Source of the DNA: Branchiostoma floridae
Taxonomy: Eukaryota > Chordata > Leptocardii > Amphioxiformes > Branchiostomatidae
Assembly: GCF_000003815.2 (NCBI RefSeq)
Contig: NC_049986.1
Coordinates: forward strand, 19,848,692 to 19,912,691
DNA length: 64,000 bases
Direction: 5' to 3'
The notes below the pieces were generated by a model. That model was not told the origin of the DNA. It ran no database searches and was given only the letters and a program-made list of their open reading frames with translations. Each line of letters opens with the position of its first letter. Positions within the stretch are counted from its first letter, which is position 1. This document shows, one piece after another, positions 23,001-57,537 of this stretch. A program made the position numbers and the translations under genes.

Positions 23001-24599
23001 CCATTGTAGCAGTGCGCGATGTACATTTTTGTATTGGAAGACACTCTGCTCCCTCCACTTGGAAAAATGTAACGTTATGTAATTTAAGACATCGAATCGG
23101 GTGAGTTCCGGTATCGAACAGGCGTTCTAATAACGTAATGTTCGTTAGAAGACCTGTAGAAGGTTCGAGTTTTAGAAGCCTTCGAACGAACGGGTGTTAG
23201 AACAGTTGTTCGAATATTTTCGGCACACATCTTCACTACTCGAAGCTGGTGTGGTATCATCCGGAAAGTAGTTCGCTCCGGCGTTTATTACACACTTTAT
23301 GCAGTCGCTTCTCGCTCTGACATTTATCATACACTACATACAGTCGCTTCCCTGCTGTTCCGTTTGGTATCCTTGACCACGATAACGTCTGGAATCGTCC
23401 AAATTTTGGACGAGGGCGCTGATTCGTCCCTACACATGAGCGAATTAAGGAATTGGGTTCAACTGCTCGTTTGAACAATGCGTTCCAACACCCGAAACGC
23501 CCTCCGTCCGCTTGTCATCGAACGAGTGCTCTAGAACCCATTCCTTACTTCGCTCATTAACTGACGTAACCACCAAAAGGTTTGAATCTGCAGGTCTCCA
23601 GACGGGTAGCGGAAGCGAACATTGGAGCGAACTACTACCCGGATGATAACCCGGCTAGGTGTGTTACGCCGAAGGGCGGTTTTACCGCGGCTATATAGAT
23701 ACAGATACTCGTTATCACTACTGAGCCATACCTTCCCATGGAATAAGTCGTGGACCATGGCAGACGTGATCTCGTGGTCGTGGTTCCCCCTGATGTAGTA
23801 CACATCCACGCCGTGCTCTCCCGCCATCTCGCACACGGCGCGAGTGAAGACCTTACAGACGGAGTCCGTCTTCCAGTGTCTGAGGAAATCCTTGTCCGTC
23901 CAGGCTGGCTCTGCGGCTAACTGGACCCACATCTCGAAGATATCGCCCAGCAGAATGAGGGAGCGGACCTTCCCTTCTGCCGCCGCCGTCACGATGCGAG
24001 ACAGCGCGCTCTCCAGCTGCAAGTGGCCGGGACAGATGGCAAGGGGCCGCCCGAGATGGATGTCGCTCAAGACGTAGATCTCTCTCTTACTGTCCGACGC
24101 TGCGCTGATCTTAACTTGGACAACTTCTTCCCCATAGGCCCCGGTTGGTGGTTGGTAGGGCTGTGGTGGACTGGCCTCTCCAACTTGACGCTGCCAAACG
24201 AGTTTGTAGGGACTCGGTCTGTCTTCGGGCATTTCTCCAACCTCAGCTTCTTCACTTGTATTGTTAGCCGCGTCGTTACCACTTTGGTTCTTGTTTACTT
24301 CATTAACGGACTGCTGGTTCCATCCTTCAAGTTTGGCACCAACTTCTTCAGTCGTTTTGCTAGGTTCCTCCTTGTCGTGGTCTCTGATCGATACTTGACC
24401 TTGACCGCTGCCAAGGTCATCGTCATGAGGATGCTCGCTTCCGGAGAAGTCGGGATGGGGCACTTCGGTGAGGTCTGAAATCTTCAGGTGTGCGAACTGT
24501 TTCGTGACGTCATGATCAGGTGAGGCGCTAACACGACTTCGCAGGTACTGTAGCTGCTTTTTTAGTTGTGTATAGAGGTCGTCTTCCACCTTTTCTTGG
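17059..24599 (-). CDS. LpxH-like calcineurin-type metallophosphoesterase
   Basis: A minus-strand gene for a metal-dependent phosphoesterase. Exons in transcript order: 23732-24599, 22598-22761, 21013-21075, 20206-20470, 19180-19368, 17059-17163 (stop TAA). Junctions are GT-AG and the frame is kept, giving at least 550 residues. An acidic, Asn/Glu-rich region of about 165 residues comes first. The catalytic motifs follow in order: LSDIHLGR (DxH), LLGDIFEMW (GDxxE), IRGNHDHE (GNHD), RFEHGHIWD (HGH) and VTGHSHHW (GHxH), then [10 protein letters not shown]. The DxH / GDxFExW / GNHDxE / EHGHxxD / GHxH series resembles bacterial UDP-2,3-diacylglucosamine hydrolases (LpxH/LpxG) more than typical animal phosphodiesterases. 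Substrate unknown; lancelets make no lipid A. The exon before 24599 with the start codon was not found: the frame at 24589 opens with GTG preceded by AAG and a weak CGACAG acceptor at about 24600. Convergent with GTF2H4. Confidence 0.85.
17625..19018. mobile_element. hAT-like element split by a nested insertion
   Basis: An inverted copy of the 3275 element. Its left part (17625-17811) begins CAGGGCTCGAAATACTGGG and carries the GTGCACCC words. Its right part resumes at 18896 and ends GAATTTCGAGCCCTG. The flanks GGAGCAAG and TGAGCAAG match at 7 of 8 positions. The interruption is the separate element at 17812-18895. It lies in the last intron of the metallophosphoesterase gene. Confidence 0.8.
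17812..18895. mobile_element. nested 1.08-kb DNA transposon derivative
   Basis: Terminal inverted repeats are ACGGGAGGGGGCCATACTTA and TAAGTATGGCCCCCTCCCGT, extended by GACA. TA is duplicated on both sides, and removing the element plus one TA restores the host sequence ATAACTAAGTTTTATT, which agrees with the intact copy at 3275-3615. TA duplication fits Tc1/mariner-like or other TA-targeting elements. The interior has no reading frame of note. A relative lies at 52707-53783. Confidence 0.8.
19405..19735 (+). repeat. tRNA-derived SINE, near full length
   Basis: Head TGTGGCGCAATCGGTAAGG (A-box-like) and GGGTTTGAAACC (B-box). Then CCCTTGGGAAAGGTACTTTA and TCACTTCGCTCAGGTGAAAA, then GGGCGTTAAATGGAGGTCCC and GAAAAGAGTAGGGGTTCTTC, ending near GTCACCTGAGTGGCGCCGAA. 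Parts of this body recur at 1625, 12655 (inverted), 24662 (inverted), 48330, 49180 (inverted) and 51780, and its GTTAAATGGAGGTCCC module recurs in the 5S-headed element at 7709. In the last intron of the metallophosphoesterase gene's 3' side, just upstream of exon 19180-19368 on the minus strand. Confidence 0.75.
19821..20118. mobile_element. Harbinger-type MITE
   Basis: Left end GGTAACATCAATTAAATTTG, right end GTTGGGGTGGCC, TTA on both sides. The interior has AGCAAGCGGACATCATAAAA and GAAAACTTGACTGTATTC, a signature shared with the copies at 54290 and 56265. In an intron of the metallophosphoesterase gene. Confidence 0.7.
20640..20960. repeat. CA-rich minisatellite
   Basis: About 320 bp of CACACA broken by ACGCACGC, CATATACA and ATGGGCACACACAGACTGA, the last phrase recurring about 180 bp apart. 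It fills most of the 542-bp intron between exons 21013-21075 and 20206-20470. Apparent Cys/Val-rich frames through it are artefacts. Confidence 0.9.
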
Positions 24600-24661
24600 C
24601 TGTCGGGGAAGAGTAAATTTCAGTTATTCTTTACTTTCTTTCTCCTAAAAAAGGTAAGATA

Positions 24662-33715: not shown

Positions 33716-34091
33716 CAACTAAACAGACATATATGGAATCTATTGGTATGAATAAGTCAACATATTGGATCTATATCTACGTGTCATTTAGTCAAGAATT
33801 ATGAAAAATCACTTATGTTGAGCATTTTCATCTTTCAGGTTGTTTCTGCATGCATCAGACAGCGGTCGATGATCGCGGCCAACATTTAAAGCAACTTTTA
33901 GCGGCAGTGCGGCTTAAGGCAAGGGGTGGGCCTGACACCTAGCGGATCCGGGGGTATCAGCAGTGTTGGGCAAGAACTCTGTAGAACATGATGCAGCTTC
34001 ATAGCTCATTCAGAGATTTAAGCATATCCTAAAACATTTATAGTGTCAGACCTCTCCATGCAGTGTTGTAGAAAGACATAAAAACACTGAA

Positions 34092-37000
34092 ATGGCAGCC
34101 CAAAATTTGTCCTTTTTTCTGATCTTCCTCCTTGCGTTTGCGCCATCTCAGACCGGTCCGTCCTGTCCTGTCCTGTGTGAGATAAAGCACACTGGGTTTT
34201 GCCCTAATCCTGGAGGCATCATGATCCAAACATCACGCTTTCGCGATAAACTTCCTTGTGCCACGTGCAACACGACCGGCCAGGCAGACGAGAACCAGCT
34301 CGGGTGTCTTCCTGGCACTCTGAAGAAGCTGCACATGGTGGGACACTCCGACAGAAACGGCAAACTAAAAACCCTGCCACAACTTGCCCAGGTTAACCTG
34401 CTGGCACTAGGGCCTGGGCACATCCTGACCGTGGAGCGTGGAACACTCTCTTCCACTCCCAACCTATGGGGACTGTCCATGAGCAAGAACGCGATCAAAA
34501 CCGTTGGAAGCTGGTTTGGAGGGATCACCAAACTAGAAAGGCTCGTGATGTCTTTTAATGAAATCGACGAGATCAAGGAGAATGCCTTTGAGCCACTGGT
34601 ACGGCTGGAGTATCTTGAGCTGAGACATAACCGGCTTCGTGCTGTGGAAGAGTGGCACTTCGCAGGCCTGACCAACCTTAAGTATCTGCACCTGAGCTAC
34701 AACCACATCTCACACATCGCTGGGAGGTCGTTCAGCCACCTTTCTAGGCTGCAAACCCTCTCCCTGGATAACAACAAGCTATCGTCTGTGAGCACCGACT
34801 GGTTACAAGGGTTATCTGCCAAAAAGATCCTCCTCAGCAACAATCCGTTCCGTTGCACCTGCGCGCTGGGCAGATTTCAGTCATTGGGAAGTCGTGTCTA
34901 CAATTGGGACAGGCTGCAGTGCAGCTACCCACCTAGCCTTTCGGGGAGAAAGATTGCCGACGTACCGAGGAACGAGATGCCCTGCCCGTCACCTACCGCC
35001 AAGACATCACGTCAGGGAACCACTCTCGTGTGTGAGGTCTTCTGGGAGCAGCAGCCAGAGATCAGGTGGTTGGATCCCGGTGGGAGTGCCGTTGGGGAAA
35101 GAGAGCCACTCGGCCTATGTGGCGGCGAGGTAACCACACGCTTAGAGCACGAGTTTCCCACCACCCAGTCTCCAGAACGAGGAACGGCGCACTCAACATA
35201 CGATCCCGGCCTACTCTACATCGGGAAGTCCATCTCCACCCTCCACATGAGTCAGCAGGCCTACCGGTGCTGGACGCAGGGCAGTTTCCGGTGCGTCGTG
35301 CAGTCTGCGGAAGGCAAAGTCTTTGCGAATCTACCGCTGACCAAGTCAAGTGAGGAAAGCGAACAAGACCCGAGACAAGAACGCACCGCGATGCCCGCCG
35401 TCTACACCACAACGCCTGCCCAGCGGAACGCTAAGATTACAGAAAGAATAGTCAAATCCACGGGCAAGAATCCACAGCAACATGACTCCACTCCAACAGC
35501 TGGTAAGGCACAATTGCGCACTGTGGTGACAACAGTCTCTACCTCAAAACCTACCCACCAAAACGGAGGGATGACGAAAGCTATGAGCAAAACAACGGAT
35601 AAGAACGCCCAGCAAGACGGCATCCCTCCGACAGCTGATCAGGAACAATGGCGGACCTGGATGAATATAGTCATCTGTATCATCTGCGTTATTCTGGCTC
35701 CGTTGGTTCTGGACAGGGTAGTGCACAAGTGCCGCAAGTGCTACAAGAAGCGACGACCTCAGCGTGACGACTTACGTGGCAATGCTGATGGCGCTACCGG
35801 AGACATACCGCTGCAAAACATGCAGCCACCGGCCGCAGCCCCTGCGACTGGGGACCCTCTGCCTCCCCGCCACACACATGATGACACCTCGGACGACACA
35901 CCCATTGCCCCGTATGCGGAAACGACGTGGTTGGAAAACCCCATGTATGACGCAGACGTGACGCGACCAAGAGGTGCCACATCCATCCCGGATCGTCGTC
36001 CCCGATCCGACAGGCCCCACAACTCCATGGCATCATCGCGACCACAGCGCCCAAGGATAGCACGGGTGGGGAAGGCCCCAGATCCACCTCCACGGTCCGA
36101 CGAGCCAGTCGACTCCAGCGGCACGTACTACCCACCACGGCTGAGGACGACCGAAGCAGAAGACATTCCGGATCCACTTCCTCGGACAAACAGATATGTC
36201 AACTCCAACGTTTCCTCACAACGACAAGGTTTGGGTTCCGGACTGGGCAGTATGAGAGGACAAAGGCCCTCATCTGACCGAAGAAGCTTGAGAGTGGACA
36301 AAAGAAAGAACGACGAAGCGGGTCCCAACATTTACCTTTACCTGAACGGCCCTTCACGCCACTCCGGCTCGGATACGTCTCAGGCACAGAGGATCCCGGA
36401 CACTCTTCCTCGGACTCGCACGTATGGCAACTCAAACGCCTCCTCACAACAGCGCGGTGTAGGAATGGCCACTATGCCGAGGCACAGGCCCTCCTCTGAC
36501 CCGTACCCGCGAGTCTTGCGGGTGGACGAAGAAGAGGACGTCTCGGGTCCCAACATCTACCTTGACCTGAACGGCCCACCACGCCACTCCGGCTCGGAGA
36601 TGCACCGGGCAGAAGAGATCCCGGATCCTCTCCCACGGACAAACAGATACGTCAACTCCAACGTCTCATGTCGACCACGAGGCCTGGAGATGCTTCAAGC
36701 AGAAGAGATCCCGGATCCCCTTCCACGAATTCACACGTACGTCAATTCCAATATCTCCTCTCATCCACGAGGTGCGGAGATGCTTCAAGCAGAAGATATT
36801 CTGGATCCTCTCCCACGGACAAACAGATACGTCAACTCCAACGTCTCATCGCGAAAACGGCATTCGAGGATGCTTGAAGAAGAAGAAATCCCGGATCCTC
36901 TCCCACGGACTAACAGATACGTCAACTCCAACATCTCGTCACAAAAACGGCATTTGAGAATGCTTGAAGAAGATGAGATCCCGGATCCTCTTCCACGGAC

Positions 37001-37157
37001 TAACAGATACGTCAACTCCAACGTCATCTCACGACCACGATGCTCAGAGATACCGAAACAGGTACCAACATCCGGGGCCTCATGGCACCATCAAGGCTCT
37101 TACCAGGAAGAGGAAGTAGAGGGTCCCAACATCTATATTGACTTGAACGGACCATGA
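34092..37157 (+). CDS. LRR-Ig transmembrane receptor with tandem tyrosine-motif tail
   Basis: An intronless 1021-residue type I membrane protein. Signal peptide about 1-22 (SFFLIFLLAFAPSQTG); Cys-rich LRR N-cap to about 72; about six leucine-rich repeats 80-250 (LEYLELRHNRL, LKYLHLSYNHI, LQTLSLDNNKL); LRR C-cap 250-303 (NPFRCTC); Ig-like domain about 308-418 (TLVCEVFW...FRCVVQSAEG); Thr/Lys-rich stalk; transmembrane helix 525-544; then a basic stop (RKCYKKRRPQR). The tail of about 465 residues has NPMY at 616-619 and nine units on a 30-residue register, seven with the core PDPLPRTNRYVNSN or close (tyrosines 702, 778, 853, 883, 913, 943, 973). Three GPNIYLDLNGP-type motifs sit at Tyr 748, 823 and 1015, the last at the very C terminus. 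Lancelets have large LRRIG families thought to act in immunity or adhesion. Ligand and signalling are unknown. Start ATG at 34092 directly precedes the signal peptide. Confidence 0.9.
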   Translation: MAAQNLSFFLIFLLAFAPSQTGPSCPVLCEIKHTGFCPNPGGIMIQTSRFRDKLPCATCNTTGQADENQLGCLPGTLKKLHMVGHSDRNGKLKTLPQLAQVNLLALGPGHILTVERGTLSSTPNLWGLSMSKNAIKTVGSWFGGITKLERLVMSFNEIDEIKENAFEPLVRLEYLELRHNRLRAVEEWHFAGLTNLKYLHLSYNHISHIAGRSFSHLSRLQTLSLDNNKLSSVSTDWLQGLSAKKILLSNNPFRCTCALGRFQSLGSRVYNWDRLQCSYPPSLSGRKIADVPRNEMPCPSPTAKTSRQGTTLVCEVFWEQQPEIRWLDPGGSAVGEREPLGLCGGEVTTRLEHEFPTTQSPERGTAHSTYDPGLLYIGKSISTLHMSQQAYRCWTQGSFRCVVQSAEGKVFANLPLTKSSEESEQDPRQERTAMPAVYTTTPAQRNAKITERIVKSTGKNPQQHDSTPTAGKAQLRTVVTTVSTSKPTHQNGGMTKAMSKTTDKNAQQDGIPPTADQEQWRTWMNIVICIICVILAPLVLDRVVHKCRKCYKKRRPQRDDLRGNADGATGDIPLQNMQPPAAAPATGDPLPPRHTHDDTSDDTPIAPYAETTWLENPMYDADVTRPRGATSIPDRRPRSDRPHNSMASSRPQRPRIARVGKAPDPPPRSDEPVDSSGTYYPPRLRTTEAEDIPDPLPRTNRYVNSNVSSQRQGLGSGLGSMRGQRPSSDRRSLRVDKRKNDEAGPNIYLYLNGPSRHSGSDTSQAQRIPDTLPRTRTYGNSNASSQQRGVGMATMPRHRPSSDPYPRVLRVDEEEDVSGPNIYLDLNGPPRHSGSEMHRAEEIPDPLPRTNRYVNSNVSCRPRGLEMLQAEEIPDPLPRIHTYVNSNISSHPRGAEMLQAEDILDPLPRTNRYVNSNVSSRKRHSRMLEEEEIPDPLPRTNRYVNSNISSQKRHLRMLEEDEIPDPLPRTNRYVNSNVISRPRCSEIPKQVPTSGASWHHQGSYQEEEVEGPNIYIDLNGP
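35982..37038 (+). repeat. coding tandem repeat, 90-nt units
   Basis: Within the LRR-Ig gene, the five last units recur every 90 nt exactly (GGATCC or its variant at 36623, 36713, 36803, 36893, 36983). Earlier units start at residues 633, 663 and 693 (30-residue steps). Two longer steps of 76 and 75 residues follow, each caused by an added GPNIYL(Y/D)LNGP block. The two first units have lost the tyrosine. Confidence 0.9.
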
Positions 37158-40651: not shown

Positions 40652-43401
40652 CTACCTGCACACTTTGACAGGAGAGTTGGGGCCGAGGTTTCGCACCTCA
40701 TCAATGCGGTTTTTATGGAGTTGGATGGATGGTGTGATCCATGCGCCACACGAACACTGCTCCCCTGCCCAGTTGAATGAACCCAGACGACCGTTGCATT
40801 TTGGACACAGCAGCTAAGTAGGGGGAAGAAAAGGAAATTGAATACACATAGTCACATAAGAGTCAAAGAAGTTGACTGTGGGTTCGAGGATTTTTTTCAG
40901 GTCCATTTTTTCAGTCCAACAAGAAAACAGTTTTGTACCGGTACACCGTTTTTTTCTTGTTGTATCCGCCCCTACTACATGCTGCTTTCTTCAAGTAGCA
41001 CTCAACATTCGAGAAATTTACGGTAGTTGAATACACACAGAACACTTACTAAGTCTACCAGTGGACTAGCCCCCTGCTGTAGCTGTACTGTAGCTGTGAA
41101 CAAAGTTGTGTGGCCCAGGGCTTTAACAGAAATGGAGATGGACACCAGAACACAAGACAACAGTAAGGGTAATCAGGTTAAATTTGAAGCAATCATAGTT
41201 GACGCAGCACCCTTTTTATCTATGTCAAGTTAAGAAATGCTGACTGTAAAAAAATGACAATTCATCCTTTTGTACATGTACTGTAAGAGTTTTCATGTCA
41301 TTAATGCCAATCAACCATTTCTCTCTCTCACCTTTCCTTGCACAACCCCGGCGAGCGACTCTGCCATCCAGGTGACCGGCACAACAAAGATGGAGGAACA
41401 CTGTACACTGGAGCCGCCTCCGTCCCCCGCGCCGCCGCGCTTGTACCAGGAGAAACACGTCTGTCCGCTGCCCGTGTCGTGCTCCATGATGCTGTCCGAA
41501 CGAAACAGGCTCCTCCTGGGATAAACATCAACAACTTTCACTTACAAGAACTTTCACTTATAACAACTTTTACTTTCACTGCCTGTCTCGCGTTCCATGA
41601 TGCTGTCCAAACGGAACAGGCTCCTCCTGGGGTAAACATCAACAACATTCACTTACGAGAACTTTCACTTTCAACAACTTTTACTTACAAGAACTTTTAC
41701 TTACAAGAACTCTCACTTTTGACAATTTGACACCCCTGGTCTATATACACACCTGCATTTCCTACACCTGAACAGAGCTGTGTTGGAGACGTTCCCTGTA
41801 GAGTCTGGGCGCTCGTGAGGGTCCGACGCAAACGTGGAGGATTCCACCTGACCTTGCTCTGTAAGAAAAACACTCTCAAGGTCACAACAAGTTCAGAATG
41901 TTTTCAGAAACCTTAAAGCACAACAGTGCCTACAAAGCTGATAATGAAAGGTAGAGAAGGAAAATGTACAAAAGCAAAACAAATTCTTTCAAGAGTTTAC
42001 AAGAGAAAGATAAAGAAGTGAGTAATCTCAAGAAGGAAGGTGTTAAAAGGTAAGAAAAAGGTGAGAAACTTTCTCCCCATGTGGTTGTGTGGGTCAGGAG
42101 AGAAGTTGGAAACCTTTCTCTGCAAAGGCAGATATTTGTGATAGTAACAGTTCAGGATCAAGAAAGAACAAGATGATTGTGGAAAAGCTTTGAGTAAAAT
42201 TGAATAAAAACAAAGTTAATGGACATGGTAGAGGAAAAGGTGGAAAGTGAGTTAAAGAAGGTTCAGGATCAAGAAACAGAATGATGATTGTGGAAAAACA
42301 GCTAGAAGTTCCAGAAAAATGAACATAAGGCCCATCAATCAATTGCTTTGTTCTCAAGATTTTGCAAGACAGGTTGATGACAAGTTAAGAAGGTGAGAAA
42401 CTTTACCATGAAACTGCTGTGCCAGGTGCTCCAGTCGGTACTGTTTGAACTCGATGCGGCTCTGGTCCACACGGCAGCCCATCGACTCGTACAGCATCAG
42501 CTGGGACATGAACCCATCGTTGGGTCTGCAAAGGGAGAAAGGTGGACAGAGCTGGCATGTCAAATTCTCATGCCTTAAATAACTGAAAGAGACTAGACAA
42601 ACTACACGAGGCTAGAATTGACTGTATGACTGTTTGTGCTGTGTTTCCCGAGGTTCGGTTATTGAACTAAGCTTTGCAAGGCTTCTATTTTTGTTGGGTA
42701 CTAACAGAAGAAGAAGAAGTTGAGCCCGACCGTTTGTTCTGTACTGACCTTATGTCTGCCTTGACCTGGCGGATGTGCTGTAGGGCCTGGTCACATGACC
42801 AGCGCTCCACCTGCATCAGGTGAGCCGCGATGACGGCCGCACTGCGGGACACTCCCTGTAGACTGGGGAAGGAGAGGACATATGATGGATCTTAAATTTT
42901 CATTCTAATCCAACTACAGCACTTACATGTACATAACATGTGAGCTATATAGTAGTAGCAACCGGATATGGTTTGGGAAACAGTCAGACATTTCAAACAT
43001 CAGTTGTGTCACTGACGAAAAACAACAAAAGTTGTTTGAAACGTCTGACTGTTTCCAAAACCATATCCAGTTTCTTGAGGAACTGGGTTTTTTTTTTTGG
43101 CGTAAGGACATTGAGATCTTCATTGAACAAACAAACCAACCCACCAGTGTACCAGCACTGCTCCCTCCTGCCGGCCCTTCTGAATGAAGCTGCTGCATTC
43201 GTCAAACCTACTCAGCAGGTCTGTGCTCCACTCGTCCAACGCGCGCACAAACTTTCGCTCGAAGGTCCCGGAGTCTGCGCCCAGGTTCAGTTCCTCGCTG
43301 TCCACGGTCAGGACGTGCGAGATTCTGGCGGACTGGAGGCTCTCGACGTCCTGAGCGTCGTCACGGTTACCGAGGTACAGGTTGGGGGAGATGAGCTGCA
43401 T
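40652..43401 (-). CDS. DUSP12: dual-specificity phosphatase 12
   Basis: DUSP12 (yeast Yvh1) is an atypical dual-specificity phosphatase with a C-terminal zinc-binding domain; Yvh1 acts in late 60S ribosome maturation. Exons in transcript order: 43145-43401, 42749-42862, 42407-42525, 41753-41858, 41332-41515, 40652-40813. They sum to 942 nt, 313 residues (human 340). N terminus MQLISPNLYLGNRDDAQ; VLTVDSEE; the catalytic loop HCLQGVSRS (HCx5R) is split across intron 1; NDGFMSQLMLYESMGC; the zinc-binding part FRCRKCR, LLCPKCNGRLGSFNW and GEQCSCGAWITPS with IQLHKNRIDE near the end. Catalytic Cys and Arg and the zinc-ligand cysteines are present. Exon 5 has a partial copy in intron 4. Head-to-head with DARS2. 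Confidence 0.96.
41581..41632 (-). repeat. partial copy of DUSP12 exon 5 in intron 4
   Basis: On the minus strand: CCCCAG acceptor, then GAGGAGCCTGTTCCGTTTGG and on to GAGACAGGC, matching the first 46 nt of exon 5 (41515 downwards) with six differences. The adjacent intron stretch (ACATCAACAACTTTCACTTAC on the plus strand) is duplicated too. Reading on in frame gives eight further codons and TGA, with no donor in between. Confidence 0.88.
42961..43075 (+). ncRNA. hammerhead-like inverted-repeat element
   Basis: CTGACGA (43012-43018) fits CUGANGA. It is followed by the hairpin AAACAAC / GTTGTTT with AAAA loop, then GAAAC (43038-43042) and GTC. The flanks GGATATGGTTTGGGAAACAG and CTGTTTCCAAAACCATATCC pair over about 25 bp. 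It lies in DUSP12 intron 1, antisense to that gene. Confidence 0.5.
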
Positions 43402-44539
43402 CTTCAGTCCGGGGAAGTCACTCGATTTTCTACTCTCTGCTCAGTATCCATGAATGGTACTGGAAAGAAGAAAACAGTTGTAACCGTGTCAAAAGAAATG
43501 GACATTTCAGACAGGATTTACTCAGTTGCTGTCTTTAACTGTATAAAAAAACTCTTTCCGAATTTCAGTTGTTGAGTAACTTTCATCGTGCATTCTTATA
43601 CCTTGATGTCGAAGTGGAAATCCATAAAAACACCTGTCATGTGCATAATGAATGCAACTGAAATGGTAGATGCATGTTTGTTTCGTTTTGTTTTGTGGCT
43701 GTTGCCTTGGCCAAATTCGGTTTGTAAGACAATCAAAAATAGTTTGGAATAGTGCAAAAATTAACGTTATACAACTGATCAGCTGATGACAATTTTTTAT
43801 AACGTAATTTTTTGGGAAAAAAAAGAAGAAATTAAAAGAATGTGATTTTTTTTAACCGTTTTCCTTGTTTCGGCCAGTATAAATGTCATAAATCTTGCAT
43901 GAAACATATGTTGCAAAGTGAAACCAAACGTTTTGTTTAAGAGTTATGATTGTCAAAGCGGTATGATGAAGGAAATTAATCGTTGACGCAGTAAACAAAG
44001 AAACGCGACGACGTACAAAGATGGAAGAATACAAAGTCCAATTCTAGCGAAGTACTGACATGATTCTTCCTAAAAATAATGTCACGTGGACCACAAAGTT
44101 ATAAGTCAATGCCTCCAATACTTACCAACCTACTTTAATTATTCGTACGCGAAAATTTCACGTTTTTTAGAAGAAAATAAACCTCAGCGGTTCCCATTTA
44201 TCATGGGCGCAGCCATCTTGAATTCCCAGCATACCGGCCTAGTGCAATGCATTTAAAGGGGAGTTCAAAATTTTTGATATGCATTTTGAGTGAAATACAG
44301 TGTAAAAGTAAAGAAACAAATAAATAAGTAACATATTTATATTTTCTATCTCTCATATAATAGACGATATAGGGTATATTAACTGTTATATCTCTTAAAT
44401 GTTATAACGATTAGTTACCCCTTTCTCTTAGTAGACTCTACCATCAACCCAGGAAGTAAAACCGGGGTCATGTTGTGAAACGCACCTCTTCCACTGTGCA
44501 AAACGTGGTTGGTTCTTACAGAATACAGGAATCGGCAAA
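43402..44539. promoter_or_regulatory. bidirectional DUSP12 / DARS2 promoter region
   Basis: 1138 bp separate the two divergent start codons. GCCATCTTG at 44212-44220 is a YY1 motif on the minus strand (CAAGATGGC). No TATA box at a convincing distance. DUSP12 may have a non-coding 5' exon here, since the sequence just upstream of its ATG is not clearly promoter-like. Confidence 0.5.
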
Positions 44540-50500: not shown

Positions 50501-53500
50501 ACAGTTAGGGTATGAAACCTGCTCTTTAACAGATCTGCTCAGTGTCTCTGAGGAAAGGTAGTGGATATGAAACCATTTCCAAAATCATTGCTTGAGTTGG
50601 AGAGTTGTATCTATAGCTTCCTGAAAGTCTACTAGATCTAAGAACTCTTTAACTGTGGAAGTCTCTCCTGACATTCAAACCAACAAACAGCCAATCAGCA
50701 TCAAGGACAGGTACATTCAAACCAACAAACAGCCAATCAGCACCAAGGACAGGGACATTCAAACCAACAAACAGCCAATCAGTACCAAGGACAGGGAAAT
50801 TAAAACCAACAAACAGCCAATCAGCACCAAGGACAGGGACATTCAAACCAACAAACAGCCAATCAGCACCAAGGACAGGGACATTCAAACCAACAAACAG
50901 CCAATCAGCACCAAGGACAGGGACATTCAAACCAACAAACAGCCAATCAGCACCAAGGACAGGGACATTCAAACCAACAAACAGCCAATCAGCACCAAGG
51001 ACAGGGACATTCAAACCAACAAACAGTCAATCAGCACCAAGGACAGGGACATTCAAACCATTAGAACCTAAGATATTGCAGAAACTTAAACTCTCCTCCT
51101 ACTGCAGAATGAATGGCACAGCTTGTTCAAAAAGTTTGCACCGTTTATTGCAGGTATTTCCAGATAGCCAAGTGCTACAGAGACGAGGACCTAAGACAGG
51201 ACAGGCAGCCAGAATTCACTCAGGTGAGGCGCCCTGACACAAACACTTGGTGCTTATAAAAAAGTACAATGTGAACCAGTCAGAATTGCCCTAAGGAAGG
51301 TGACAGATGGCCACTGAGACGTTGGTGTAAATAAAGCAGGGGTTGTGAAAAAAGAGCCTCAGAGGTCTTTACTCTCATAATTCTACATGAACCTTTAAAA
51401 ACAGTGAGACATCATCACAATGTGAACAATAGCTAACAATATCTGCCTTCCATGCTATGATAACCATTGTTCAAACCTCCGACATAGTTAATAGTAATGA
51501 TTTTCACAGAGCCAAGAAATCTATGTGCTACAAACTCAAATGTGGATTTGTCACATTTCCTTCCTTGTAGGTTGATATAGAGATGTCCTTTGTTGACCAG
51601 AGGGGTGTTGAGCAGTTGATAGAAGAGCTGCTGCAGCATGCATGGCCTGATGGGAAGGGTGCTCTTACGCTGCCTTTTCCCAGAATGCAGTACAAGGATG
51701 CAATGAAGAAGGTAAGTCTTTTGTTTGTTTGTTTATTCTATGACCCTCCAATCAAATAGGCATGTAAAGAACCTGCCACACTTATTGAAAAGAGTAGGGG
51801 ACCTTCCCGGTGTGAGTGGATCAAACCATTCCAGTTTATATAAATGGGATAGAGAATCTCCCAAGCATGAGATGAATTTTTAAAGTAGAAATTAGATCTT
51901 GTATTAATGTCCTTGTATTAAGATATCAGTTATCAGTTTTTACAGCAATGCCGCTACATGGCCTTGAAAAGAAGGCTGTGGACCTGTACCTTTACCTTGA
52001 AGATGTCAACTGTCTCACCTGTATGTGTCTCTGTTTTTTTCTTCTTCAGTATGGCAGTGACAAACCTGACACCAGATTTGGAATGAAGGTGAGTGACAAC
52101 CATGGTAGAAGATTGATGAAATTTTATTTTCTTGTAAAAAAGCACAGCTCATATTATAACTGATCACATTAATTAGTGATTTAGAACTGTGTTTCTACAA
52201 AGTGTACAAAATGATTCAAGCAAAGTATTGATTCTGAGAGCCTTTCTTCGACTCATTAATGTCAGTTATGAAACATCTGACTCTTTAGAGAACTCATCTA
52301 GTCGCTTCATGAGATATTTCGTATTACTTAATGTTCAGCCTGGATTTCCATTTTTTTGTTTGTTTTATTTTTTAAGTGTATTCTCTCTTTTCACAGTTAA
52401 ATGATGTGAGTGACATCATGAGGTCAAGTGGGGTCACAGTGTTTGAGAGGTTACTCAAGGACAACTCAGGAAACACCATCCAGGCCATCAATGCCAAACA
52501 GGCAGCTGTGAGTAGTAAACATTTATCACAATATGTTGCTGTGTATGCAGAGATTCATAATTAGTATGCAGATGCAAAGGATCTGAAGTGTACTTGATCA
52601 TGAACCTACCATATGTCTGTATTAATTTTGTCCAACTGTTACTGGTAGAATCATCAGACAAAAATTATATAATAAGCTTCATGTACATTTTGTGCTTTGT
52701 AACATTAACGGGGGCCGCCCTAAGACGGTTCCCGTCCTAAGACGGTACGGATTTTTTGCTGATCTTATTATCCATAAGTACACCGTGTTTGTTGCCACAG
52801 ACTATGCTGATTACAAAGGTAAATAAACCAAGTCCATGCACACAGCTTTAATTTGCATTCCAAGTATACTTTAACATATTTACTTCATGTTTTTTAAAAA
52901 CAGAATTCTAACAATAATGTTGACAGTGCTGAATCACTGCGGTCACCGGCCTCTGCGTATTGGCGGCTCGTGTCGCTAACTATACGAACTCGTCCAAGCA
53001 GTCACACAACTGCCATGATACACATAAATAAAGCTCCATAAAACACTATGGATATGGGTCTTCAAATGTTTGTTGAGTAGAAAAGCGACCAAAAGGAAGC
53101 GACATAAACATTGCCACCATTGTACTCCCAAGGGAGTGTGGCCGTGAAGGTGGCAGACAAGAGAACGCTCCAAAGATTTATTTGACTGTAACAAATGATT
53201 CGTGCTGGCTATGAAAATAAGACTTGATAGAGAGATGTATATGATATTTTCATATAATCACACAGAGTTTTGTTGATGTTGGCGGTGTCGTTTTTTCGTA
53301 ATGTTTTTTTTAGTCGGGCATTCACAATCAGTGCATTCAGTCCATTGCCCGTAAAAACATCAGCTGGATTGTTCTAGGTACAGCCTTCCTCATATGAGAC
53401 AGAAAGTACATACAGTCACGATTTTACTTTTAAAAGTAATCTTAAAAATATCATACTATTAATTTTTTTCTGTGTACTTAAATTTACCACTTACTTCTGA

Positions 53501-56500: not shown

Positions 56501-57326
56501 GTGGTCTAATTGAATGAAGATTGAAAAAAAGTCAATTAATGTCAGCCCTGTTGATAGGTTCAGGGTTGGAGTCTGCACACCACCCCTTTACGGCCCCCCA
56601 CCCTGATGACTTGGACCTGGTGTATTCTCACCCACACAAGGTAAGACAAAAAAATATCTTAACAGAACAATATGCATTATTTTTCTTGCTTGAAGGTTAG
56701 AGTGCCAAATTGAATGTCAATGAATGTGTTGACTTTCTGTATCTATATATTTGGTATAACCGCCCTTCAGTGTAACACTCCAGCTTTGCAGGCACGCGGT
56801 GCGGCAGCAGCTGGTTATATTTCACTGAATGATCCGTCACACCTAACCTTTGCACATCTTTCTGCAAGCATTCTTTAAAACTATCCAGAGAAGATACCCC
56901 TACTGTGCTTGGTAATAACAAATTCCACTTTATGATAGTGCGGGGAAAATACAAATTTTTTAACACATCGATCCTGTTCACTTGGTAACTCTGGTACTGG
57001 AAGGCATGACTGTTTCTTGTTCTTTTTTCAGCTGGTATTAGATACTTATCAGTCTTTATGTCCATCAGTTTATTGGTCATTTGTACATCATGGAAAGTCT
57101 AGACATTTTCCTTCTGTCTTTAAGTGATATCCACTGCAGGTCTGTTTTGTCTTACCTATGGCTATGGACTCACCTGTACCTTTACCTTCACCTGCCTCAC
57201 CTGTATGTGCTTCAGGTGCGCAGCCAGCATTACGACCTGGTTCTGAACGGTAACGAGATCGCGGGCGGTTCCATCCGGATCCACGATGCTGAGGTACAGA
57301 GGTACATCCTGGAGGAAGTCTTAAAG
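44540..57326 (+). CDS. DARS2: mitochondrial aspartyl-tRNA synthetase (partial, 3' end off window)
   Basis: DARS2 charges mitochondrial tRNA-Asp with aspartate (class II, bacterial-type). Exons: 44540-44654, 46114-46213, 46517-46583, 47051-47152, 47619-47714, 48562-48685, 49578-49624, 50050-50156, 51154-51223, 51571-51711, 52050-52088, 52397-52507, 54033-54095, 54762-54914, 55583-55637, 55982-56059, 56558-56640, 57216-57326: 1662 nt, 554 codons, frame kept. Residues 1-38 are Arg-rich and acid-free, a mitochondrial presequence. Then the anticodon-binding OB fold ([11 protein letters not shown]), motif 1 ([20 protein letters not shown]), motif 2 ([20 protein letters not shown]), the bacterial insertion domain, [22 protein letters not shown] and [19 protein letters not shown]. 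Motif 3 (GLDR) and about 90 C-terminal residues (human length 645) are missing from the window, not broken. Exon 14 has an upstream partial copy and exon 17 two possible acceptors. Confidence 0.96.
45051..45585. mobile_element. Harbinger-type MITE with long terminal inverted repeats
   Basis: GGCCACAGCAAGTAAATTTT followed by ATGGATGACATC at the left is repeated inverted at the right (GATGTCATCCAT...GCTGTGGCC), about 32 bp perfect. TTA lies on both sides. In DARS2 intron 1. Confidence 0.85.
45630..45722 (-). repeat. tRNA-derived SINE head, inverted
   Basis: On the minus strand: GGCGTGGCGTAATGGTTAGA (A-box-like) then CCCAGATCGAGTC (B-box-like). No complete tRNA fold is evident. In DARS2 intron 1. 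Confidence 0.45.
48330..48470 (+). repeat. tRNA-derived SINE fragment
   Basis: GTCCTTGCATAAGGCACTGA, then CACTCCACCTAGGTGTAAAA and ATGGGTACCTGACTTTGG, the body order of the SINE at 19405. It ends about 90 bp before DARS2 exon 6. Confidence 0.55.
48785..49135 (+). mobile_element. LINE reverse-transcriptase C-terminal fragment
   Basis: A frame of 111 codons beginning [20 protein letters not shown], with [29 protein letters not shown] and [12 protein letters not shown]. This pattern (RRDVASL.LFYRY.HG...PRTS.LWN.LP...) is the typical C-terminal end of jockey/CR1-like LINE polyproteins. It lacks the catalytic reverse-transcriptase domain, so it is a 5'-truncated, inactive copy. In DARS2 intron 6. 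Confidence 0.8.
49180..49335 (-). repeat. SINE body fragment, inverted
   Basis: Minus strand: CTTCAGTTAGGGCCATCCCT, then GGGTCCCATGTTTGAGGAGA, GCCACACCTCGATAACGTTA and AAAAGAGTAGGGGTCCTTCC. Same module order as 19555-19650. Directly downstream of the LINE fragment at 48785. Confidence 0.6.
50671..51060 (+). repeat. 42-bp minisatellite in DARS2 intron 8
   Basis: About nine units of GACATTCAAACCAACAAACA followed by GCCAATCAGCACCAAGGACAGG, nearly identical to each other. Because 42 is a multiple of three, reading frames stay open on both strands ([14 protein letters not shown] forward, [14 protein letters not shown] reverse), which is not evidence of coding. Each unit carries a CCAAT box within GCCAATCAG. 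Confidence 0.95.
52707..53783. mobile_element. 1.08-kb DNA transposon derivative
   Basis: Starts ACGGGGGCCGCCCTAAGACG and ends GGGGCACCTCCCGT, flanked by TA. Length (1077 bp), termini and TA duplication make it a relative of the 17812-18895 element, although the interiors differ. GACGGTACGG (left) and GCGTACCGTG (right) give a further weak inverted repeat. In DARS2 intron 12. Confidence 0.65.
54290..54500. mobile_element. Harbinger-type MITE copy
   Basis: Left end AACACCATTAGTTTGTTCTT (diverged), interior TTAGCAGGCAGACATCATAA and AAACTTGAATTTGCCTGTAT, right end ACAAATGAAGATGGTGTGGC then CTAA. It ends about 31 bp before the exon 14 copy at 54531. Confidence 0.6.
54531..54599 (+). pseudogene. 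partial upstream copy of DARS2 exon 14
   Basis: ATATTGCAG acceptor followed by GGGCTGCCCATACTACAAAT and on to CACATCAGC then TAG. It reads [22 protein letters not shown]-stop against [27 protein letters not shown] in the true exon at 54762. The intron stretch before it (TTATATTGCAG) is duplicated as well. An internal GAG|GTAAAG could serve as a donor and would give a 36-nt in-frame mini-exon. Confidence 0.85.
54945..55090 (-). mobile_element. LINE 3' fragment, inverted
   Basis: TTTATTTCACCAGGGTAGAG...GCCCCCTGGGGGAGAACCCC, a phrase that recurs in part at 57360-57420 (GTGCCCTGGGGGG...AACCCC). Both lie just after DARS2 exons (14 and 18). Probably a LINE 3' UTR; family not identified. Confidence 0.4.
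56265..56506. mobile_element. Harbinger-type MITE
   Basis: GGCCAAACCAATTTCATTTG at the left, AACAAATTAATTTGGTGTGG at the right, interior GAAAACTTGAATCCGACTG. It ends 51 bp before DARS2 exon 17. Confidence 0.7.
56697..57080 (-). mobile_element. LINE reverse-transcriptase C-terminal fragment
   Basis: Minus-strand frame [20 protein letters not shown], then [20 protein letters not shown] and [20 protein letters not shown], with [10 protein letters not shown]. The FPRTI..WN.LP pattern marks a LINE polyprotein C terminus. The catalytic domain is absent. The 3' part matches the fragment at 11722. In DARS2 intron 17. Confidence 0.7.
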
Positions 57327-57537
57327 GTGGGCTGTTGTGTCTTGGTCTTGTTTGTTTGTAGTCGCTTTTCTAGGTGCTTTTCAATGTGCCCTGGGGGGGG
57401 GGGGGGAACCCCAGACATACATATACATATGTATCAAATTAAAATTAGAAGTAACATAACATGAGAAAATTAGCTTTGACGTATGCCCATGAAGACAAAT
57501 CATAGCAACTTAGGAATAACCAATACATAACTTCATC

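Follow-up and report, generated by a model that had tools for sequence, protein, structure and literature searches.

Tandem Pro-Arg and Tyr-x-Asn motifs in the tail of a lancelet leucine-rich repeat receptor: a possible multivalent docking scaffold

Results and Discussion

Architecture of the receptor

The window, which is the whole stretch of 64,000 nucleotides analysed here (Branchiostoma floridae, contig NC_049986.1, positions 19,848,692 to 19,912,691), contains a receptor gene whose predicted cytoplasmic tail is built from repeated short motifs, and this tail is the subject of the present work. The protein has 1021 amino acids counted from the ATG at 34092 and lies inside an open frame from 34044 to 37157. 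In window coordinates, with (+) for the plus strand, its main parts are:

34092..37157 (+): receptor coding sequence, one open frame, 1021 amino acids
34386..34988 (+): leucine-rich repeats (LRRs) and probable LRRCT cap, limits approximate, from Pfam LRR_8 and PDB LRR matches
35004..35336 (+): candidate immunoglobulin (Ig)-like region (C314, W326, C401), from Cys/Trp positions and weak matches
35655..35717 (+): predicted transmembrane segment, hydropathy peak, about residues 522-544
35910..35948 (+): membrane-proximal PYAETTWLENPMY, including NPMY at 35937-35948; NPxY stands in similar context in paralogues

An earlier reading of the sequence alone (the sequence-only reading) had described the protein as an LRR-Ig receptor. 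The extracellular LRRs are present, as Pfam LRR_8 matches with 1.1e-41 (140.8 bits against a cut-off of 27) and PDB matches to LRR proteins include LRIG1 at 7e-35; a match to the LRRCT cap stayed below its cut-off (E 0.0044, 17.9 bits, cut-off 20). The Ig domain was not called by Pfam (Ig_3 matched partially with E 0.15, below cut-off) and the PDB gave a weak match to axonin-1 with E 0.05, but from the positions of its Cys and Trp residues an Ig domain in the ectodomain is plausible. Aside from the hydrophobic N-terminal start, hydropathy indicates a single transmembrane segment, followed by a tail of 478 residues with the NPMY motif exactly at residue 616, where it had been placed. Searching Pfam with the tail gave one match, under its cut-off, and searching the PDB gave two weak ones; in the viral and prokaryotic contig collections no relatives of the tail were found, chance pattern matches alone. 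With its extracellular LRRs, candidate Ig domain and one transmembrane segment the protein resembles LRIG/LINGO/AMIGO-type LRR-Ig proteins, the ectodomain alone being compared. It differs from them in the repeated docking tail seen here, which is not known among these proteins.

Repeated units in the tail

According to the sequence-only reading the tail carries nine PxPxPR plus YVN units on a 30-residue register. The register was recovered in full: an Asp is found at all nine residues (634, 664, 694, 770, 845, 875, 905, 935 and 965) and the steps are 30 residues except for 694-770 (76) and 770-845 (75). The motifs are less regular, with strict PxPxPR in six, YxN in seven and both in five of the nine units; if PxxxPR is allowed, eight units have the Pro-Arg motif and six have it together with YxN. 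The units are:

35988..36005 (+): unit 634, a PDRRPR element without Tyr
36078..36095 (+): unit 664, a PDPPPR element without Tyr that is widespread among family members
36165..36209 (+): dual unit 694, IPDPLPRTNRYVNSN
36393..36437 (+): dual unit 770, IPDTLPRTRTYGNSN, PxxxPR rather than PxPxPR
36618..36662 (+): dual unit 845
36708..36752 (+): dual unit 875, IPDPLPRIHTYVNSN
36798..36842 (+): unit 905, ILDPLPRTNRYVNSN, LDPLPR with the first Pro absent and the Tyr kept
36888..36932 (+): dual unit 935
36978..37022 (+): dual unit 965

We rejected a description as nine equivalent units, as YxN is present in seven of them and 664 is a separate Tyr-less PxPPPR element. A profile of the seven Tyr units found unit 634 with a score that none of 5000 shuffles reached; unit 664 was not significant in the free profile search (395 of 5000 shuffles), and was so only at its fixed register (16 of 20,000). 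A composite PxxxPR...YxN occurred in 50 of 20,000 composition-preserving shuffles of the tail. Eight YxN are present in the tail, seven in units and one in a GPNIY block (shuffle mean 1.14, maximum 6), along with eight PxxxPR (mean 0.91, maximum 5; 5000 shuffles each). Since the units are duplicates, these motif counts reject chance but do not prove function. The coding DNA of the tail forms a tandem repeat with a period of 90, in which units 935 and 965 are most alike with 86% identity.

Constraint on the units

To see what is conserved between the copies, synonymous (pS) and amino-acid (pN) changes were compared among the seven Tyr-bearing units. The 15-residue core shows a pS of 0.405 and a pN of 0.073, the 15 linker residues a pS of 0.465 and a pN of 0.356. 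None of 20,000 random sets of 15 columns reached the ratio of the core, a figure that is partly circular because the core was picked for its conservation. For the six motif columns defined a priori (P, P, P, R, Y, N) we obtained a pS of 0.357 and a pN of 0.047, and residue changes as few as in these columns occurred in 274 of 20,000 random six-column sets. Each of the nine invariant residues (I, D, L, P, R, Y, N, S, N) is encoded by more than one codon and carries synonymous changes. Variable codon positions 1, 2 and 3 number 2, 5 and 12 in the core and 10, 14 and 12 in the linkers, and nine invariant columns appear in the frame of the gene only, the other five frames having at most six. Judged from these codon comparisons and those described below, selection on the unit is clear in the window gene and in its closest relative L009, and moderate in the family.

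Paralogous receptors

Relatives were searched in the genome containing the window (513 Mb, 431 contigs), and all comparisons are therefore between paralogues in one genome. The best 44 of 1775 candidates were scored, 98 matches were listed and 20 regions fetched, leaving out more distant matches, for example on contigs C5, C6, C11, C12, C164 and on C8 near 13.07 Mb. Together with the window this gave 21 loci, in which units were identified with the profile of the window's seven units; some loci are interrupted or contain masked runs, and units in fragments of other frames were also counted. As the profile places a few units one column off register (in L013, and a single one in L024), the family motif counts are approximate.

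We found 130 units in 16 of the 21 loci (none in L019, L022, L026, L027 and L028), with 1 to 29 units per locus. YxN is present in 104 units and PxxxPR in 102, with 85 having both and nine neither, an association too weak for a single obligate composite motif, which was rejected (85/19/17/9, Fisher p 0.107). Most intervals between units measure 28-34 residues (90 of 108), 47 of them exactly 30, and ten PxxxPR units, all from L013, have an Arg-to-Tyr spacing of five instead of four. In nine loci (the window, L009-L014, L016 and L017) a single open frame contains LRRs, NPxY, two or more units with PR plus YxN and two or more GPNIY blocks. Among 17 ectodomains compared, that of L009 is closest to the window's (82% identical). 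At the DNA level the pattern LPRxxxYVN matches exactly at 83 sites in the 513 Mb, 74 of them in 13 family loci and nine scattered singly, whereas the reversed control pattern has 18. The PNIYLDLN-type pattern, which through one codon choice also allows Phe in place of Leu, matches at 28 sites; every one of them is in a fetched family locus, and the control has none. By these patterns the tandem arrays are private to this receptor family within the genome.

Within single arrays pN/pS was lower for the motif than for the linker in 12 of 15 sets, in L011 by 0.01 only, the exceptions being L014, L024 and one L013 set; two L013 rows in this comparison are one column off register. The strongest in-register contrasts between motif and linker were those of the window (0.14 vs 0.71) and L009 (0.11 vs 0.60), and some family arrays hold many divergent units.

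Several relatives have features of their own. About 3 kb past the window end an inverted partial copy of the tail (L020, G000:C8:19915573-19916722, minus strand) matches residues 550-855 of the query frame with 85% identity and contains units and GPNIY, with no LRR in frame. Over the final six profile-matched units of L010 (C3), forms without Tyr (KRxANSSKRLI) alternate with YVN forms, and L012 (C3) has both forms without strict alternation. The most units in the fetched set belong to L021 and L024 (C3), with 29 and 15; neither has an NP[MVQ]Y match, and NPVF and NTMY are found in similar context. The more distant LRR receptors L026, L027 and L028 (C9, C195) have no YVN units and repeat NPxY instead: L027 has three copies spaced 21 residues apart (NPQY, NPQY, NPKY), L028 three and L026 two. 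L025 (C18) has an extracellular stalk with about ten GGEGTSRDCSTIK-like units.

The GPNIY blocks

Three copies of a further block interrupt or end the array of the window gene, the third of them being absent from the sequence-only reading:

36321..36353 (+): block 1, GPNIYLYLNGP
36546..36578 (+): block 2, GPNIYLDLNGP
37122..37154 (+): block 3, GPNIYIDLNGP, very C terminus, residues 1011-1021

With a profile of these three, 33 blocks were found in 14 loci, one to four per locus and two or three in ten of the 14. Tyr and Leu at +3 are present in 33 of 33, Asp at +2 in 31 and Asn at -2 in 32, and the blocks mostly follow an acidic run. A set of 29 copies, chosen by a regular expression that fixes several positions, gave a pN/pS of 0.07 against 0.82 for the 12 upstream residues. 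The sequence-only reading regarded GPNIY as an addition to the unit array, a view that found no support: on these codon and residue counts, no other part of the tail that was measured is as constrained as GPNIYLDLN, whose tyrosine is also the best kept.

An immunoreceptor tyrosine-based activation motif (ITAM) consists of two YxxL/I about 6-12 residues apart. This assignment was rejected, as block starts are 75 and 192 residues apart here and 46 in the closest listed pair of the family. The inhibitory counterpart (ITIM), which has S/I/V/L at -2 of YxxL/V, was rejected as well, since 32 of 33 blocks have Asn and the remaining one His at this position. In a single-YxxL ITAM (hemITAM) acidic residues directly precede GYxxL. 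The blocks resemble the hemITAM receptors CLEC-2 and Dectin-1 in that acidic residues mostly precede a lone YxxL, but GPNIYLDLN occurs one to four times per locus and its acidic residues lie further upstream, the nearest such position being five residues before the Tyr (Asp/Glu in 24 of 33 blocks).

History of the array

Units 694 and 770 each form the head of a long unit, of 76 and 75 residues respectively, composed of core, spacer and GPNIY. Beyond unit 965, the last one, come a spacer that has diverged and the terminal GPNIYIDLNGP. The simplest history would be that a long unit was duplicated and its 30-residue head then expanded between two GPNIY blocks. Growth towards the C terminus, as had been suggested, does not fit this arrangement, in which the short units sit between two GPNIY blocks and the last block forms the C terminus. 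Among 124 units the most similar unit belongs to the same locus with a frequency of 0.53 (mean 0.11 and maximum 0.19 in 200 label shuffles), so the arrays are remade locally, the motifs being kept nonetheless.

The two membrane-proximal units do keep PR and have no Tyr, as previously noted, but the proposed loss of the Tyr found no support. The proximal P.PPPR at the position of unit 664 is present in 15 of the 16 unit-bearing loci (not counting a further P.PPPR of L011, which is a C-terminal unit), and in none of the 15 is there a Tyr at the unit position, so this is no recent loss in the window gene.

Candidate partners

Candidate partner genes for both motif classes exist in the same genome, their binding being putative. 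A Grb2-like gene on C13 was found as four collinear pieces covering residues 1-153 with 72-78% identity, one of them with a stop codon inside a match that was scored ignoring introns; no C-terminal SH3 of this gene was found on C13. The SH2 exons are 78-79% identical and leave unchanged the segment KYFLWVVKFNSLNELV, which holds the Trp that imposes Asn at +2. With human CIN85 SH3A, B and C as queries, three collinear SH3 exons were found on C9 (60, 57 and 55%; G000:C9:12786380-12790885, CIN85/CD2AP-like), and a second locus on C12 matched SH3A and C at 56 and 55%. A collinear exon pair on C15 resembles the two SH2 domains of SYK (42% and 36%). The C9 exons contrast with PMC8294545, which found CD2AP-type genes in vertebrates only, plus CINDR in arthropods.

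The tail as a possible docking scaffold

Seven of the nine units have the form of a Grb2 SH2 ligand (Tyr with Asn at +2) and eight that of a CIN85/CD2AP SH3 ligand (PxxxPR), phosphorylation and binding being putative. A valency as in LAT, with three or more YxN, is also present, while clustering driven by phosphorylation is again putative. We consider the tail as a possible multivalent SH3/SH2 adaptor scaffold within a receptor, following a LAT-like and SLP65-like logic, and give this reading a probability of about 0.5. The scaffold had already been proposed from the sequence alone, and it is backed by the fact that both motif classes are kept while the linkers change, less strictly in the relatives, and by the candidate Grb2 and CIN85/CD2AP-type partners.

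In such a scaffold the PxPxPR sites would at rest bind the SH3 domains of a CIN85/CD2AP-type adaptor. Clustering of the ectodomains by a ligand would lead to phosphorylation of the tail by a tyrosine kinase, upon which the phosphorylated YVN sites could recruit Grb2 through its SH2 domain and GPNIpYLDL a YxxL-reading SH2 protein, with a Syk-type protein as candidate. Because the Arg-to-Tyr spacing is four residues with three between, each unit can probably accommodate a single partner at any moment, like the PxxDY/ITAM overlap of CD3-epsilon, and phosphorylation would switch the units from SH3 to SH2 occupancy. The number of units would set the valency and thereby the threshold for clustering or endocytosis. 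The differing numbers of docking sites among the receptors suggest that signalling is tuned by site gain or loss.

Several papers describe related behaviour. In human TTP PxxxPR is required for CIN85 binding and a change of the first Pro abolished it (PMC2833206), so unit 905 with its LDPLPR is predicted to be SH3-silent. In RIN3, the residues contacted by the second CD2AP SH3 are Pro, Pro and Arg in the spacing P-x-P-x-x-R (PMC10453029), which is also found in these units. Valency governs condensation of SLP65 with CIN85 (PMC10923291). For CD3-epsilon, phosphorylation of a shared Tyr replaces SH3 by SH2 binding (PMC2661883, PMC3507883), and a report that Nck binding hinders CD3-epsilon phosphorylation is cited in PMC2661883.

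The known systems come close to the proposed scaffold in parts. LAT, in which multivalency drives condensates, is not known to have an LRR ectodomain and has three Grb2 tyrosines compared with seven or more here, and its sites are not tandem, lie in acidic contexts and have no paired PxxxPR. SLP65/BLNK is a cytosolic adaptor and not a receptor, and its motifs are not known to be tandem copies with a paired YxN. The likeness to LAT lies in a transmembrane protein with a disordered tail and several Grb2 YxN sites (Y171, Y191, Y226; PMC6624021), and that to SLP65 in a disordered protein with six proline-rich motifs of PxxxPR type for the three SH3 domains of CIN85, whose valency governs phase separation (PMC10923291). 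In the PxxDY/ITAM of CD3-epsilon an SH3 ligand overlaps the Tyr of an SH2 ligand and phosphorylation switches the partner (PMC2661883, PMC3507883), but this is a single site for the Nck SH3 and ZAP-70, whereas here the Tyr lies four residues past the SH3 ligand and the arrangement is repeated.

A number of observations weigh against the scaffold. The minimum-change Fisher test is borderline, with p 0.047 for the core and 0.061 for the six motif columns in this gene alone. The invariant 'I.D.LPR...Y.NSN' exceeds the two known motifs, which do not account for its D, L and final SN. Around the unit Tyr the residues are basic/polar (RTNRYVN, RIHTYVN), whereas those around the LAT sites are acidic, and thus no kinase is obvious. 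The profiles for units and blocks were made from the window's own copies, which favours motif-bearing matches. Orthologous tails that keep the spacing and lose the motifs were named by the sequence-only reading as the outcome that would speak against it; among the paralogues of this genome such tails are not the average, and still YxN is absent in 26 and PxxxPR in 28 of the 130 units. In 118 in-register units the contrast is weaker, with a pN/pS of 0.46 for the core against 0.78 for the flank (118 of 128 units kept, the five-spaced ones of L013 left out, two of 130 dropped for having no flank), and without the window, L009 and L020 (99 units) it is 0.50 against 0.78. Also pS is lower for the motif within arrays (0.22 vs 0.43 in the linker), so part of the conservation may reflect DNA homogenisation.

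This last point would suit a near-neutral coding minisatellite, in which a disordered tail grows longer through homogenised 90-bp repeats and recent duplication preserves the motifs, as would the period-90 repeat, its local homogenisation and the frequent loss of motifs in units. We regard this as very unlikely, as in this gene synonymous divergence is similar in core and linker while amino-acid divergence of the core is about five-fold lower, the codon-position pattern and the frame specificity speak against it, and the motifs are kept across locally remade arrays. Alternatively, the Pro-Arg part alone might work as a constitutive multivalent SH3 ligand of CIN85/CD2AP type for clustering or endocytosis, with the tyrosines unphosphorylated. 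PxxxPR without YxN in 17 of 130 units, including the alternating Tyr-less units of L010, the proximal PxPPPR in 15 of 16 unit-bearing loci and the Tyr context that is not obviously kinase-like would all agree with this, but the converse, YxN without PxxxPR, is found in 19 of 130 units, and neither Tyr nor Asn varies among the seven units of the window despite synonymous changes, making it quite unlikely.

In a further rival reading, signalling would really depend on GPNIYLDLN after its acidic run, as a YxxL of hemITAM-like kind recognised by a Syk-type SH2 protein, with the PR/YVN units as auxiliary spacers or tuning sites. Tyr and Leu at +3 in 33 of 33 blocks from 14 loci, the pN/pS of 0.07 against 0.82 upstream in 29 copies, the confinement of all 28 PNIYLDLN-type sites to family loci and the SYK-like SH2 exon pair on C15 (42%, 36%) are in line with this idea. 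However, the acidic residues are further from the Tyr than in hemITAMs, the 29 copies were picked by a position-fixing regular expression and the 33-block profile came from the window's copies, and the YVN units are constrained too, so that we see it as unlikely.

The motif classes and multivalency as such are already known. More doubtful than likely, and put forward tentatively, is the wider proposal that one polypeptide joins recognition to Grb2 docking as in LAT, CIN85 docking as in SLP65 and a signalling Tyr in repeated GPNIYLDLN, that valency evolves locus by locus through unequal exchange of 90-bp coding repeats, that phosphorylation switches SH3 and SH2 binding per unit, and that a more distant receptor group does likewise with tandem NPxY. 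None of the open-licence literature matches listed showed a receptor family that combines a tandem composite SH3/SH2 unit with GPNIYLDLN. Well-studied multivalent SH2/SH3 docking (LAT, SLP65) uses separate adaptors with few sites and controls the clustering of immune signalling proteins. Here, related receptors with varied unit number and with Tyr-less and Pro-Arg-less versions would make the effects of valency and motif pairing on signalling directly testable, and the family illustrates how short linear motifs can be multiplied inside receptors.

Other features of the window

Apart from the receptor gene, the window contains the following:

23534-24619, minus strand: metallophosphoesterase gene piece
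43123-43440, minus strand: dual-specificity phosphatase gene piece, below cut-off
57042-57461, plus strand: class II tRNA synthetase gene piece

A 42-bp tandem repeat at 50670-51060 has 9.3 copies with 97% matches and is open in several frames.

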